Assembly: GCA_947625405.1 (NCBI GenBank)
Contig: CANQOF010000004.1
Span: forward strand, 1-64,000
DNA length: 64,000 bases
Direction of reading: 5' to 3'
Source: an uncultured Atopobiaceae bacterium
Lineage (GTDB): Bacteria; Actinomycetota; Coriobacteriia; Coriobacteriales; Atopobiaceae
Positions 8,402 to 16,820 of the stretch are shown one piece after another. Under the pieces are notes generated by a model that did no database searches, was not told where the DNA came from, and saw only the letters and a list, made by a program, of their open reading frames with translations. Each line of letters begins with the position of its first letter. The stretch's first letter is position 1. The position numbers were made by a program, and so were the translations under genes.

Positions 8402-8410
8402 GGGACTTTG

Positions 8411-9298
8411 ATGGAAACCAAGGAAAAGCCGCGGGTCAAGGCTGCGTTCTTCGATATCGACGGGACGCTCATCCCCTTTGGGCCGAAGGGGCAGCGCTTC
8501 GTGCCGAACGACACGGTGGCCGCGCTCATGGCGCTTCGCACGCAAGGCGTGAAGCTCATCGTCTGCACCGGGCGCTTCGTGCGCTTCGCGAAGATGGTGG
8601 AAGAGCACTTCCCCATGGACGGCTACGCGACGCTGAACGGCCAGTACTGCCTCCTCAACACCGAAGACGCAGACGGCGTCGTCATCGGCGAGGAGGTCGT
8701 GCGCGAGGTGCCCGTGAACGAGGAGGACAAGGCCACGATGCTCGATCTCCTTCGCAATGGAAAGATCGTGGGCATCGTGAACTTCTCCGATGAGCTCTTC
8801 GTGACGGGCACTCCCGAGAGGCTAGAGGAGGTGGAGGATCGCTGGATCATGACGCCCCACAAGGCCATCGAGGAGATTGACGCCAATCGCCCCATCTACC
8901 AGTTCGTGCTGAACGCCGCGCCCGAGGAGGACGAGCGCGTCCAGGCGCTCACGAAGCACCTCATCACCCAGCGCTGGGAGCCCACGGCGGTGGACATCAT
9001 CCAAGAAGGTGGCGGCAAGCGGCGTGCGATGGAGGCGTACTTCGAGCGGCTCGGGATACAGCCCGAGGAGACCATCGCCTTCGGCGACGGCGCGAACGAC
9101 ATCCCCATGCTCGAGACCGCGGGCATCGGCGTGGCGATGGGAAACGCATCGGACGAGGTGAAGGCCCACGCCGATTTCGTGAGCGACGCCTGCGACGCGG
9201 GAGGCATCTGGAACGCGCTCGTCGCGCTCGGCGTGATCGAAGGCGCGCGCGTGGAGCGCGAAAGCGCAGGCCAGACGGGTGCGAGCGCGGTTTCGTAA
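8411..9298 (+). CDS. Cof-type HAD hydrolase
   Basis: A 295-residue HAD phosphatase of the Cof/IIB class. Motif I is FFDIDGTLIPFG (near residue 14), motif II is VCTGR (near 54), and motif IV is AFGDGANDIPMLETAGIGVAMGNA (near 220-245); a cap domain lies between. Such enzymes dephosphorylate sugar phosphates or nucleotides. It follows the acetyltransferase by 9 nt with AGGTAGGGGA as ribosome site. ATG 8411 is preferred over the TTG directly before it. Substrate unknown; linkage to a sugar acetyltransferase hints at sugar detoxification. Confidence 0.88.
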   Translation: METKEKPRVKAAFFDIDGTLIPFGPKGQRFVPNDTVAALMALRTQGVKLIVCTGRFVRFAKMVEEHFPMDGYATLNGQYCLLNTEDADGVVIGEEVVREVPVNEEDKATMLDLLRNGKIVGIVNFSDELFVTGTPERLEEVEDRWIMTPHKAIEEIDANRPIYQFVLNAAPEEDERVQALTKHLITQRWEPTAVDIIQEGGGKRRAMEAYFERLGIQPEETIAFGDGANDIPMLETAGIGVAMGNASDEVKAHADFVSDACDAGGIWNALVALGVIEGARVERESAGQTGASAVS

Positions 9299-9432: not shown

Positions 9433-9738
9433 ATGGAACCCATTATGCCGCTCACTACTTTGCTTAGGAACCCGGGCAAGGTGAAGGACGCCGCGAAGGA
9501 AAGCATCGTTCGCATCACCGAGCACGGGGAGGGTGCCTATATCTTCGCCACCGAGGAATCCTTCGAAGCCTACGTGCGCCGCCAGAGGGAGGAAGCGGCC
9601 TTCGAGGAGCGTCTCGCAAGAGCCGTTGAGCAGGGGCTAGAGGACATTGAGGCCGGGCGCGTTTCTGACGATCTTGATGGCCTGTTCACTCACGTAGAGG
9701 CGAAGTTCCAGGAGGAGACCCGCGATGAGCGAAGGTGA
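9433..9738 (+). CDS. Probable antitoxin
   Basis: A 101-residue protein with a Phd-like start (MPLTTLLRNPGKVKDAAKESIVRITEHGEGAYIFATEESFEAYV) and an acidic helical C-terminus (ARAVEQGLEDIEAGRVSDDLDG). The pattern of helix, then strand pair, then helix is that of Phd/YefM antitoxins, though similarity is weaker than for the other pairs here. It overlaps the next gene, a ParE/RelE-like toxin, by 14 nt. The nested palindrome upstream supports autoregulation. Confidence 0.65.
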   Translation: MEPIMPLTTLLRNPGKVKDAAKESIVRITEHGEGAYIFATEESFEAYVRRQREEAAFEERLARAVEQGLEDIEAGRVSDDLDGLFTHVEAKFQEETRDERR

Positions 9739-10009
9739 TCGCGCGGAGCGCACGGTCGTCTTCACGAACCTCTTCGCCGAGCAGCTCGACGAAGTTTTCT
9801 CCAAGACCGCCTATCAAAAGATAAAGCGGCGGATCCTCACGCTCGCACGGTTTCCCGCCATTGGGAGCCCCACCCCTCGAGCAAGCCTTATCGACCGCTT
9901 CGGTTCAGGCATTCGGATTTCTCCGGTAGCCGGCTTTGTGATCATCTATCGGGAAACCGATGAATCTATCGAGCTTCTCGCATTGGTTTTTGGCCGGACA
10001 ATCATTTGA
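9725..10009 (+). CDS. RelE/ParE-like toxin
   Basis: A 94-residue protein with the ParE/RelE layout: VVFTNLFAEQLDEVFSKTAYQKIKRRILTLARFPAIG (paired helices) followed by GIRISPVAGFVIIYRETDESIELLALVFGR (beta sheet with the usual YR-x5-I-x-L-L-x3 pattern). Whether it acts on gyrase or mRNA cannot be told. It is translationally coupled to the antitoxin gene at 9433 through a 14-nt overlap. Confidence 0.75.
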   Translation: MSEGDRAERTVVFTNLFAEQLDEVFSKTAYQKIKRRILTLARFPAIGSPTPRASLIDRFGSGIRISPVAGFVIIYRETDESIELLALVFGRTII

Positions 10010-10031: not shown

Positions 10032-11483
10032 ATGACCGAGCTTTCAGAGTCCTTTATCTCCTGGGTGCTCGAGCAGGGGCTTTCGGGCGAGATCGTCGAG
10101 CGTCGAAGCGATGGTCCCATGGCGTGCTCCCTCGAGATCGAGACCGCGCAAGCCACGGGCACCGTCAACGTCTACGATCTCGGTGCCGACGTGCCGAACA
10201 TCGTGGAGTTTCGCATCGTGCGGAAGGGCCATGAGGACGATCCCGCCTTCCACCTGCACTTCGAGATGCTCGACCTCGCCCGCGCCAAGGAACTCTTTGG
10301 CGAGATGCGCGATGTGCTCGCGCGGCTCGAGCACCCGAGGGCCACAAAGGTGCTGCTCTGCTGCTCGGGTGGCCTCACGACGACGATGTTCGCCGACGAG
10401 CTCACGCGTACGGCCGAGCGCTTCCACCAGGACTACGTCTTCGAGGCGAAGGGGCTCGAACGCGCGATCGAGGAGGCGCGTCGCACGGACGAGGGCTACG
10501 CCTGCGTGATGCTCGCGCCGCAGGTGGGCTACCAGCGCGAGCGCGCCGCGAGGGCCTTCCCGGGCATCCCCGTCTTCGAGGTGCCGGCGAAGACCTTCGG
10601 CACCTACGACGCGCTCGGCGCCTTCCGCCTCGTGATGGACGCGCTCGAGCAGGAGATCGACGAGCCGGATCCGGCGGGGGAGAGGATCGCGCTCGAGCCG
10701 CTCCTCGACCTCGCACGCACCTCGAGGGTGCTCGTCATCCTCCTTCGGCATCTGAGCTCGGGGGCGCGCCTCGAATGGCGGCTTTACGAGCATGATGCGG
10801 TCGTGAAGAGCGGGCGCGTGGTGAAGGGGGCGCTTCGCTACCACGACGCGCGGGATCTCATCGCCGCGCTCGCCTGCGGAGAGCTCGACGTGGCGAGCCT
10901 CGACGCGATTGGCATCGCGGTGCCCGGGATCGTGAAGGACGGGACGGCGATGCTGCCGTGGCGAAAGCTCGCGCCCTATGACCTCGCGGGCAAGATCGAG
11001 GCGCGCTTCGGCGTGCCCGCCTTCGTGGAAAACGACGCGAACGCCGCGTGCGTGGGCTGCTACGTCTCGCAGAGCGACTACGAGAACGTGACGCTCCTCG
11101 TGCAGCACGCGGGCCACATCGTGGGTGGCGCGGGCACCATCGTGGGCGGCAGGCTCGTGAAGGGCTACAAGGGCTACGCGGGCGAGATTAAGTCCATCCA
11201 GCAGCTTTACAGCCTCCCCGAGGACATCGAATCGCGCGCGTGGAGTCCCGAGGCCATGACGCAGGTGGCGATGGCGCACATCGTGGCCGTCTCCTCGCTC
11301 GTGGCGCCCGAGGCGTGCTTCGTCGCCATGGACATGGTCCCCGACATGGAGGCGCTCAAGGTCGAGGTGGAAAAGCACATGCCCGCCGCCTTCGCGCCCG
11401 CGCTCATCCACGTGGCAAACGAGCGCGAGCGCACGTTCCTCGGCATGTTCGCCCTCGCGCTCTCGGGCCTCCAAGCGAGGTAG
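10032..11483 (+). CDS. EIIB-like phosphocysteine domain fused to a degenerate ROK domain
   Basis: A 483-residue protein with three parts. Residues 1-100 are a novel alpha/beta segment. Residues 105-200 look like a lactose-type PTS IIB domain: VLLCCSGGLTTTMFADEL with Cys111 aligned to the phosphocysteine, and VMLAPQVGYQRERAARAFPGIPVFEVP as the second half. Residues 230-483 resemble a ROK sugar kinase/regulator: AIGIAVPGIVKDG, FVENDANAACVGC with the catalytic-position Asp335, and GYKGYAGEIKSI. The ROK N-terminal phosphate loop (D-x-G-G-T) is missing, being replaced by LLRHLSSGARLEW, and the ROK zinc cluster is not evident. No helix-turn-helix is seen. I infer a signalling protein rather than an active kinase. 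ATG 10032 has GGAG 6 nt ahead. Confidence 0.72.
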   Translation: MTELSESFISWVLEQGLSGEIVERRSDGPMACSLEIETAQATGTVNVYDLGADVPNIVEFRIVRKGHEDDPAFHLHFEMLDLARAKELFGEMRDVLARLEHPRATKVLLCCSGGLTTTMFADELTRTAERFHQDYVFEAKGLERAIEEARRTDEGYACVMLAPQVGYQRERAARAFPGIPVFEVPAKTFGTYDALGAFRLVMDALEQEIDEPDPAGERIALEPLLDLARTSRVLVILLRHLSSGARLEWRLYEHDAVVKSGRVVKGALRYHDARDLIAALACGELDVASLDAIGIAVPGIVKDGTAMLPWRKLAPYDLAGKIEARFGVPAFVENDANAACVGCYVSQSDYENVTLLVQHAGHIVGGAGTIVGGRLVKGYKGYAGEIKSIQQLYSLPEDIESRAWSPEAMTQVAMAHIVAVSSLVAPEACFVAMDMVPDMEALKVEVEKHMPAAFAPALIHVANERERTFLGMFALALSGLQAR

Positions 11484-15451: not shown

Positions 15452-16534
15452 TCAGGCGGGAACCGATTCGACGGTGATTGCGGGCTGGGCGGCCTTCCAA
15501 CACTGCGGATCCTGGGCGTAGAAGCTGCCCGACGTGCCCGAGGCGACGGCGGGGCAGCCTCGGCAGAACCGGAGGAGCTCGCAGTCCGAGCACTTCTCGA
15601 AACTGCCGAGCTCGCGGAAGGCCTCGAAGGGACCGAGCCAGAGGTCCTGGAGCCGATCCTCGAAGACGTTTCCGACGACGCTTCCGGCTACACGACGGCA
15701 CGCCATGACGTCGCCCTCGGAGGTGATGGTGAGGTGGCAGTCGCCACAATGGCAGCCGCCGTGGACGAGCCCGTCATCGCTCTGGTCATCGAGCGAGAAG
15801 GCCCCCGTCTCGTAGTCGTAGAGCGTCCAGAGGTGGTCCTTCTTGTTGAAGTAGGTCTCGGCGCCGTGGGCCTCGTGCCACCTGAAGCGTTCATCGCAGG
15901 CGGCGAGGAGCGACCGATAGCGCTCCGGCGCGATACCCACATCCTTGTCCTCGGCTGTCGGGCAGTAGCGCGAGAAGGCGAAGACGTCCGCCCCCGCCTC
16001 GACGACGACGTCGATGAGCTCGGGAATCTCATCCACGTTCGCCGCGGAGACGGTCGTCATGACGATGGCACGGATGCCGCCTGCCTTGAGCTTGGGGATC
16101 GTCTCGAGGGTCGCTCGGTAGGAGCCGGGCTTGCGAAACCAGTCGTGGGTCTTCTCGAGGCCGTCCAACGAGAGCTGGTAGCGGATCACGCCAAGCGCTT
16201 GCATCCGAGCGATGGATTCTTCCGTTAGGTGGAAGGGATTACCCATCACCGTGATGCCATAGCCGCCCTCGCGGATGAGGGCGAGGAGGCGCCAGAAGTC
16301 CGGGTGGAGGATGGGATCGCCGCCGGTTATATAGAAATAGGGCCTTCGCCCGAAGACCTCGCAGAACTCGAGGATGCGGGCGAAGGTCCGCTCGATTTGC
16401 TCCCAGCTCATCTCCATTGGACGCCGCGCAACGTCCTCCGCGTAGAGGTAGCAGTGCTTGCAGCGCTGGTCGCACGCGTCCGTGATGTGCCACTGGAAGG
16501 CGAAGGGCTCTCCGGTAAGGGCGATTTGGCTCAC
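15452..16534 (-). CDS. Radical SAM/SPASM peptide-modifying enzyme
   Basis: A 360-residue enzyme. The radical SAM cluster ligands are Cys21, Cys25 and Cys28 in TDACDQRCKHCYLYAED. YFYITGGDPILHPDFW is the GGEP-like motif. The C-terminal SPASM region has CHCGDCHLTITSEGDVMAC, then CSDCELLRFCRGC and a final Cys near the end, enough for two auxiliary [4Fe-4S] clusters. SPASM enzymes commonly make thioether or C-C crosslinks in ribosomal peptides. The gene starts with GTG 6 nt after the stop of the Cys-repeat peptide gene, so the two are coupled, and the peptide is the evident substrate. From memory it resembles the TIGRFAM CbpB class acting on CbpA peptides; I could not verify this. Confidence 0.87.
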   Translation of the reverse strand: MSQIALTGEPFAFQWHITDACDQRCKHCYLYAEDVARRPMEMSWEQIERTFARILEFCEVFGRRPYFYITGGDPILHPDFWRLLALIREGGYGITVMGNPFHLTEESIARMQALGVIRYQLSLDGLEKTHDWFRKPGSYRATLETIPKLKAGGIRAIVMTTVSAANVDEIPELIDVVVEAGADVFAFSRYCPTAEDKDVGIAPERYRSLLAACDERFRWHEAHGAETYFNKKDHLWTLYDYETGAFSLDDQSDDGLVHGGCHCGDCHLTITSEGDVMACRRVAGSVVGNVFEDRLQDLWLGPFEAFRELGSFEKCSDCELLRFCRGCPAVASGTSGSFYAQDPQCWKAAQPAITVESVPA

Positions 16535-16540
16535 CGATAC

Positions 16541-16735
16541 CTACTTATCTGCGGCGCCACAAGCAGCTGGCTTGTCGGCGGCTCCGCATGCAGCTGGCTT
16601 GTCGGCGGGCTTGTCGGCGGCGCCACACGCAGCTGGCTTGTCCGATGCGCCACACGCGGCGGGCTTGTCGGCCGCGCCACACGCGGCTTCGGGAGCATAG
16701 GCGTGAGCCCACGACGCGAAATCTTTGAGGGACAT
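16541..16735 (-). CDS. RiPP precursor with five Cys-x3-Asp repeats
   Basis: A 64-residue peptide. Residues 1-17 (MSLKDFASWAHAYAPEA) look like a short leader. Residues 18-64 hold five copies of a nine-residue unit, consensus ACGAADKPA, with Cys at 19, 28, 37, 50 and 59 and an Asp exactly four residues after each. The spacing is 9, 9, 13, 9; the 13 comes from an inserted KPAD. No other Cys is present. AAGGAGG sits 4 nt before the ATG. Cys-x3-Asp repeats are the known crosslink motif of the ranthipeptide freyrasin, where a radical SAM enzyme joins Cys sulfur to the Asp beta carbon. The gene lies directly ahead of a radical SAM/SPASM enzyme, which makes a modified peptide very likely. Confidence 0.85.
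   Translation of the reverse strand: MSLKDFASWAHAYAPEAACGAADKPAACGASDKPAACGAADKPADKPAACGAADKPAACGAADK
16544..16684. repeat. Tandem 27-nt coding repeats inside the precursor gene
   Basis: Five imperfect 27-nt units encode the nine-residue Cys repeat; one spacing carries an extra 12 nt. Copies differ at some third positions, and one has an Ala-to-Ser change. The array can expand or shrink by recombination, which would change the number of crosslink sites between strains. Confidence 0.85.
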
Positions 16736-16796
16736 GGGGCCTCCTTCGGCTCGATTGGGATGTGCCTTAAGTCTCGGGCCCCCATGCAATCCCACA

Positions 16797-16820
16797 AGTA
16801 CGCACTTCGAAGTAACTACT
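16797..16820. promoter_or_regulatory. Dyad operator between the RiPP operon and hxlR-type gene
   Basis: AGTA-N3-ACTTCGAAGT-N3-TACT is a symmetrical 24-nt dyad with a perfect 10-nt core (16804-16813). It lies 62 nt from the peptide start and 68 nt from the HxlR start, in the only gap between these divergent units. It is probably the HxlR binding site. Confidence 0.65.

Follow-up and report, generated by a model that had tools for sequence, protein, structure and literature searches.

A conserved EIIB-ROK fusion protein of uncultured Atopobiaceae, with an invariant cysteine and a lost ATP loop, as a candidate PTS-linked sensor

The fusion gene and its product

The DNA analysed here, referred to as the window, is a stretch of 64,000 nucleotides from an uncultured Atopobiaceae bacterium, an actinobacterium of the gut (contig CANQOF010000004.1). 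The gene under study lies on the forward strand at positions 10032-11483 and consists of one stop-free ORF encoding a protein of 483 aa. The ATG at 10032 was chosen as the start, being preceded by GGAG and in agreement with the relatives in the alignment. A longer ORF, from the ATG at 9960, overlaps the ParE-like gene upstream. The features to which we refer are the following:

8408..9298, + strand, HAD Cof-type (PF08282) phosphatase gene, upstream of the fusion gene (Pfam)
10032..11483, + strand, EIIB-ROK fusion protein, 483 aa (ORF, orthologues, dN/dS)
10032..10343, + strand, N-terminal domain, residues 1-104 (AlphaFold2 of the domain alone, no family match)
10341..10646, + strand, EIIB-Lac/Cel-type domain, residues 104-205 (PF02302, IIB-chitobiose alignment)
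10362..10364, + strand, codon of Cys111, predicted phosphocysteine (invariant in 127/127 members)
10719..11480, + strand, ROK pseudokinase domain without the ATP loop, residues 230-483 (PF00480, Foldseek)
11034..11036, + strand, codon of Asp335, ROK catalytic-base position (Asp here, Asn in most relatives)

Orthologues of the product are found in congeners, with 93% identity in three of them and 73% in a fourth. Compared with the congeners' copies, dN/dS is 0.18-0.30 for the whole gene and 0.10-0.31 for the EIIB part, which is thus under strong constraint.

Domain architecture

The initial annotation had described three parts in this protein, namely a new N-terminal domain, an EIIB domain carrying Cys111 and a ROK domain devoid of the ATP loop, and this architecture is borne out by Pfam, by alignment and by AlphaFold2 modelling. 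No recognisable DNA-binding or membrane part was found in the sequence of the fusion protein.

Residues 1-104, modelled with AlphaFold2 as an isolated domain (pLDDT 95), fold as a helix, five strands and a helix. This conserved domain has no match in NCBIfam, none in Pfam (for either the window protein or the relatives scanned) and none to an HTH family. Comparison with the PDB returned nothing convincing, the best hit being the N-domain of KhtT (E 0.025, TM about 0.5), so that its description as new still stands with respect to these collections. Within a sample of 347 genomes of the phylum, the domain was seen in its own genome only and in none of the 346 others.

The central region is recognised by the Pfam model PTS_IIB (PF02302) at residues 106-188 (E 5e-6; 27.4 bits against a cut-off of 23.6), and 22 of 22 relatives scanned match both this model and PF00480 at E<1. 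A family profile made from these 22 relatives aligns, over residues from about 104 to 205, to E. coli IIB-chitobiose 1h9c (E 5e-14) and also to 2wy2 and 1e2b/1iib, further E. coli IIB-chitobiose structures; in these alignments Cys111 falls on the active-site cysteine. Structure prediction had been proposed as a check on the placement of this residue. In the AlphaFold2 model of the full protein, computed on the family alignment (pLDDT 85.6, pTM 0.82), strand 105-111 ends at Cys111 and is followed just after by helix 116-130, which puts the cysteine in an EIIB-like loop. The 50 best Foldseek matches of the full model are folds of the ROK type plus a small number of unrelated chains, with no EIIB among them; therefore, the assignment of the EIIB fold relies on the profile alignment and on the secondary structure. 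Conservation was counted on 127 distinct full-length members of the family, and Cys111, Thr116, Pro163 and Gln164 are invariant in all of them (127/127). The EIIB-Lac motif that had been read around Cys111 is confirmed, and we infer that this cysteine may accept phosphate from EIIA-Lac. E. coli ChbB (1iib, 1h9c, 2wy2) resembles residues 104-205 in sequence, in fold and in the cysteine that aligns with Cys111, but it is a stand-alone transport subunit of 106 aa.

The C-terminal part matches Pfam ROK (PF00480) at residues 286-386 (E 2e-13; 50.9 bits against a cut-off of 22.9), and Foldseek relates it to ROK kinases and repressors, including 2aa4 (E 1.7e-13) and, in 3bp8, the complex of Mlc with EIIB. 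The fold of residues 230-483, together with the END/NAAA and AGE segments, is shared with the ROK kinases and regulators NanK (2aa4), StgGlk (3vgk) and XylR (4ija), whereas the fusion has lost their ATP loop, GTGxG loop, ExGH and zinc motif. The loss extends to the whole family: as had been noted for the window protein, the D-x-G-G-T loop is missing at its proper position in all members (0/127; two string matches fall elsewhere), and the zinc motif CxCGxxGC, GTGxG and AGExGH are each found in 0/127. On the other hand, the residues on the sugar side are mostly kept, with N334 present in 120/127 members and E385 in 114/127. The catalytic Asp335, which the initial annotation reported as conserved, is indeed part of an END at residues 333-335 of the window protein, but this does not hold for the family, where the position is Asn in 96 members, Asp in 28 (the window protein included) and Ser in 3. 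Judging from the sequences, selection has kept the phosphate acceptor and dropped the kinase chemistry, since Cys111 is invariant and the ATP loop, zinc motif, GTGxG and AGExGH occur in no member.

In a tree of ROK domains the fusion family groups (SH-aLRT 100) with four HTH-ROK proteins that come from the same bacterial family, and the 12 other ROK proteins sampled fall outside this group; the sampling is small, with long branches. The sister HTH-ROK proteins (e.g., L150:4686-5672, L240, L241) also lack the ATP loop, and they differ from the fusion in carrying an N-terminal winged-helix-like part in place of the N-terminal domain and EIIB.

Distribution of the family

A second full-length copy, 46% identical, is present in the same genome. 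Searching other genomes for the architecture, as had been suggested, retrieved matches at E below 1e-30 in 42 of 140 Atopobiaceae genomes, belonging to 5 of 35 genera, with 1-8 matches per genome and about 175 overall. Among 399 genomes of the order, no full-length match was found outside these 5 genera or outside the family, the other matches looking like ordinary EIIB or ROK proteins; viral contigs and plasmids gave no full-length match either. Relatives that bear a name in GTDB are uncultured members of the Atopobiaceae, their assemblies being of rabbit ('Lapin') origin. As the fusion recurs in 42 genomes from 5 genera and has a paralogue in its own genome, a chimera produced by an assembly error, which had been named as an observation that would overturn the reading, is ruled out. 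The EIIB-ROK fusion family is real and conserved. We found no described protein with an EIIB-ROK architecture in Pfam, NCBIfam, the PDB sequences or limited literature searches, in line with the earlier statement that none was known. At L152:5325-5645, next to what is left of a GH1 gene, there is a fragment of the N-terminal domain, in a genome (G018) whose genus is otherwise devoid of the family; it is a decayed copy.

Genomic neighbourhoods

Each group of paralogues has neighbours of its own, consisting of sugar and phospho-sugar genes (GH1, GH13, MupG, HAD phosphatases, EIIA-Lac). A GH13 gene is found directly upstream in 5/5 members of group 4, eight members of group 8 are immediately preceded by a HUMPS-family gene, and MupG with EIIA-Lac lies upstream in group 1; GH1 genes occur near several groups according to Pfam. 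In muropeptide recovery, MupG acts as the 6-phospho-N-acetylmuramidase and works with the MurP PTS (PMC6262408). Of 101 members, 10 have a HAD Cof-type phosphatase gene no more than 300 bp away (0.46 expected), and this occurs in 3 of 14 groups; the enrichment is modest, with p about 0.01 under a crude model that ignores the clustering of sugar genes. In the window, two genes (9433-10009) separate the HAD gene from the fusion gene: one for a ParE-type toxin and, upstream of it, a small one that presumably encodes the antitoxin. This pair was probably inserted between them, because the two genes are only 27 bp apart in the congener G002 (L093).

The copy in the window does not belong to a clear PTS operon, and most copies have no EIIC nearby: the MupG operon of group 1 is the one place where an intact EIIC gene was seen. 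Fusion copies in operons with EIIC and EIIA-Lac are found in L142 and L153. The possibility that the fused EIIB replaces a lost EIIB of these operons was considered and rejected: the operon EIIB looks broken in L142 and L153, but in L182 it is a normal EIIB, nearly whole and cut only by the end of the contig, and in L184 a run of N stands at this place. Since the L182 operon encodes its own EIIB, the fused one is not the sole EIIB of the MupG operon. The operon EIIB genes that lack their middle part or contain an N-run (in L142, beside EIIA and EIIC; L153:500-930; L153:3850-4310; L184:1126-1368) are likely to reflect assembly gaps in near-identical copies.

In one clade of the family (26 members, support 1.0), a calcineurin-like metallophosphoesterase is fused to the N-terminus, giving proteins of 737-769 aa (e.g., L142:6554-8764, L106, L153) in which the motifs GDIHG, GDFG, GNH and GHxH of the phosphoesterase are intact. 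Several of these members are located in operons with EIIA-Lac and MupG. Furthermore, in group 7 (L220, L215) the next gene downstream encodes a stand-alone protein 58% identical to the fused metallophosphoesterase domain.

A split form of the protein is found at L150:4686-7323, where a gene for the N-terminal domain plus EIIB (207 aa), a HAD phosphatase gene and an HTH-ROK gene without the ATP loop lie on one strand. The arrangement is known from G074, where a gene with the N-terminal domain and EIIB only is on the same strand as HAD phosphatase and HTH-ROK genes; in G075 these pieces are located at the ends of contigs. A protein of 87-88 aa with no Pfam match is encoded at L099:3127-3393, directly upstream of a member of the fusion family, and at L102:14296-14559.

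Candidate PTS partners

The genome to which the window belongs encodes EI, two HPr-like proteins and a single EIIA-Lac, as against two fusion proteins; in the relatives checked, 1-3 EIIA-Lac genes stand against 3-6 fusion copies. Because the genomes checked hold 1-3 EIIA-Lac genes and a genome of the family can encode up to eight fusion proteins, the copies probably share a phosphodonor, as would be expected of read-outs and not of dedicated transport subunits.

Proposed function and alternatives

Taken together, the sequence data lead us to favour, with some reserve, a soluble two-input sensor or regulator linked to the PTS, which has a dead sugar-kinase domain and would act through protein contact. 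If PTS substrates run short, Cys111 would be phosphorylated by EI, HPr and the only EIIA-Lac of the genome; as long as sugar is flowing, it would be left unphosphorylated. The pocket of the ROK domain may bind a sugar or sugar phosphate of the pathway and would leave this ligand unphosphorylated. The combined state of phosphorylation and ligand binding could then alter the contact with a partner of the local pathway. This partner is probably the phosphatase in the clade fused to the metallophosphoesterase and in the clade that has it as the next gene; for the window protein, a candidate is the HAD sugar-phosphatase encoded upstream. The initial annotation had proposed a sensor for which PTS phosphorylation and sugar binding are simultaneous inputs and which perhaps modulates another protein. 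Its outline fits four results, namely the invariance of Cys111 in proteins that have lost the kinase site, the sister relationship of the ROK half with HTH-ROK regulators, the many copies facing few EIIA-Lac genes, and the fusion of one clade to a metallophosphoesterase; phosphorylation, ligand and partner are the parts that we infer. The metallophosphoesterase, fused in one clade and adjacent in another, and in both cases in MupG operons, is the best clue to an output; its fusion suggests one that is non-transcriptional, which would represent a new kind of PTS target. That the sensor would have an output independent of a DNA-binding domain of its own is an argument from absence.

The descent from HTH-ROK regulators could also indicate a transcription factor or co-repressor acting via another DNA-binding protein. 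The winged-helix-like part in the sister ROK proteins is consistent with this idea, as are the N-domain-EIIB gene or pieces in G074 and G075, in the former on one strand with the HAD and HTH-ROK genes. Nevertheless, the fusion itself has no HTH and the split arrangement is confined to one genus, and we regard this explanation as unlikely. The intact EIIB active site and the operons of L142 and L153 would suit a standard transport EIIB that carries a passenger domain and phosphorylates the incoming sugar via EIIC; this is made improbable by the presence of 1-8 copies per genome facing 1-3 EIIA-Lac genes, by the scarcity of neighbouring EIIC genes and by the normal EIIB in the MupG operon of L182. 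Alternatively, if only in those clades where Asp335 persists, phosphocysteine 111 could pass its phosphate to a sugar in the ROK pocket, making the protein a soluble sugar kinase driven by PEP and independent of ATP. An invariant Cys111, an ATP loop lost everywhere, the largely kept N334 and E385, and Asp335 itself in the window protein and in group 4 would all be in accord with such an enzyme, but the catalytic base is Asn in 96/127 members and the sister HTH-ROK regulators lack the loop as well, so that we consider it very improbable. Finally, a decaying or non-functional fusion, which the fragment in G018 might bring to mind, is hardly credible, as dN/dS is far below 1 for each of the three domains, the cysteine is invariant in 127 members and the family spans 5 genera.

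The sensor that we favour may be compared with two known types of control. In E. coli, the ROK repressor Mlc loses its activity on binding the glucose transporter that bears EIIB (PMC10305011; complex in PDB 3bp8), and here too the activity of a ROK domain would depend on a PTS EIIB. In that case, however, two proteins are involved, the EIIB is membrane-bound and of the glucose family, and the ROK protein has DNA-binding and zinc motifs, whereas the fusion has a soluble EIIB of the Lac type in one chain with ROK, and neither HTH nor zinc motif. In regulators of the MtlR type, with PRDs, the transporter acts on EIIA- and EIIB-like domains that they contain (PMC6148471). As is proposed for the fusion, MtlR and CelR (PMC6148471, PMC3478281) are soluble regulators with an EIIB-like domain read by the PTS, but they possess HTH, PRD and EIIA-like domains, none of which was found in the fusion, and have no ROK domain; no PRD match was obtained in the 22 members of the fusion family scanned. 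By analogy, the fusion would resemble both EIIB-containing regulators and the Mlc-EIIB pair in its way of working, but it belongs to neither class, having no HTH and no PRD. In the known control of ROK by EIIB, two distinct proteins make contact, and here both modules form one chain, a unit with its cysteine kept in 127 members, its ATP site gone, and up to eight copies per genome beside different sugar pathways. It offers a compact system in which the PTS phosphorylation state and sugar binding could vary independently.

Another sequence in the window

Elsewhere in the window, between a radical-SAM-like and an HxlR-like gene, positions 16500-16800 contain a low-complexity repeat that reads as AAPHAAGLS units in one frame.
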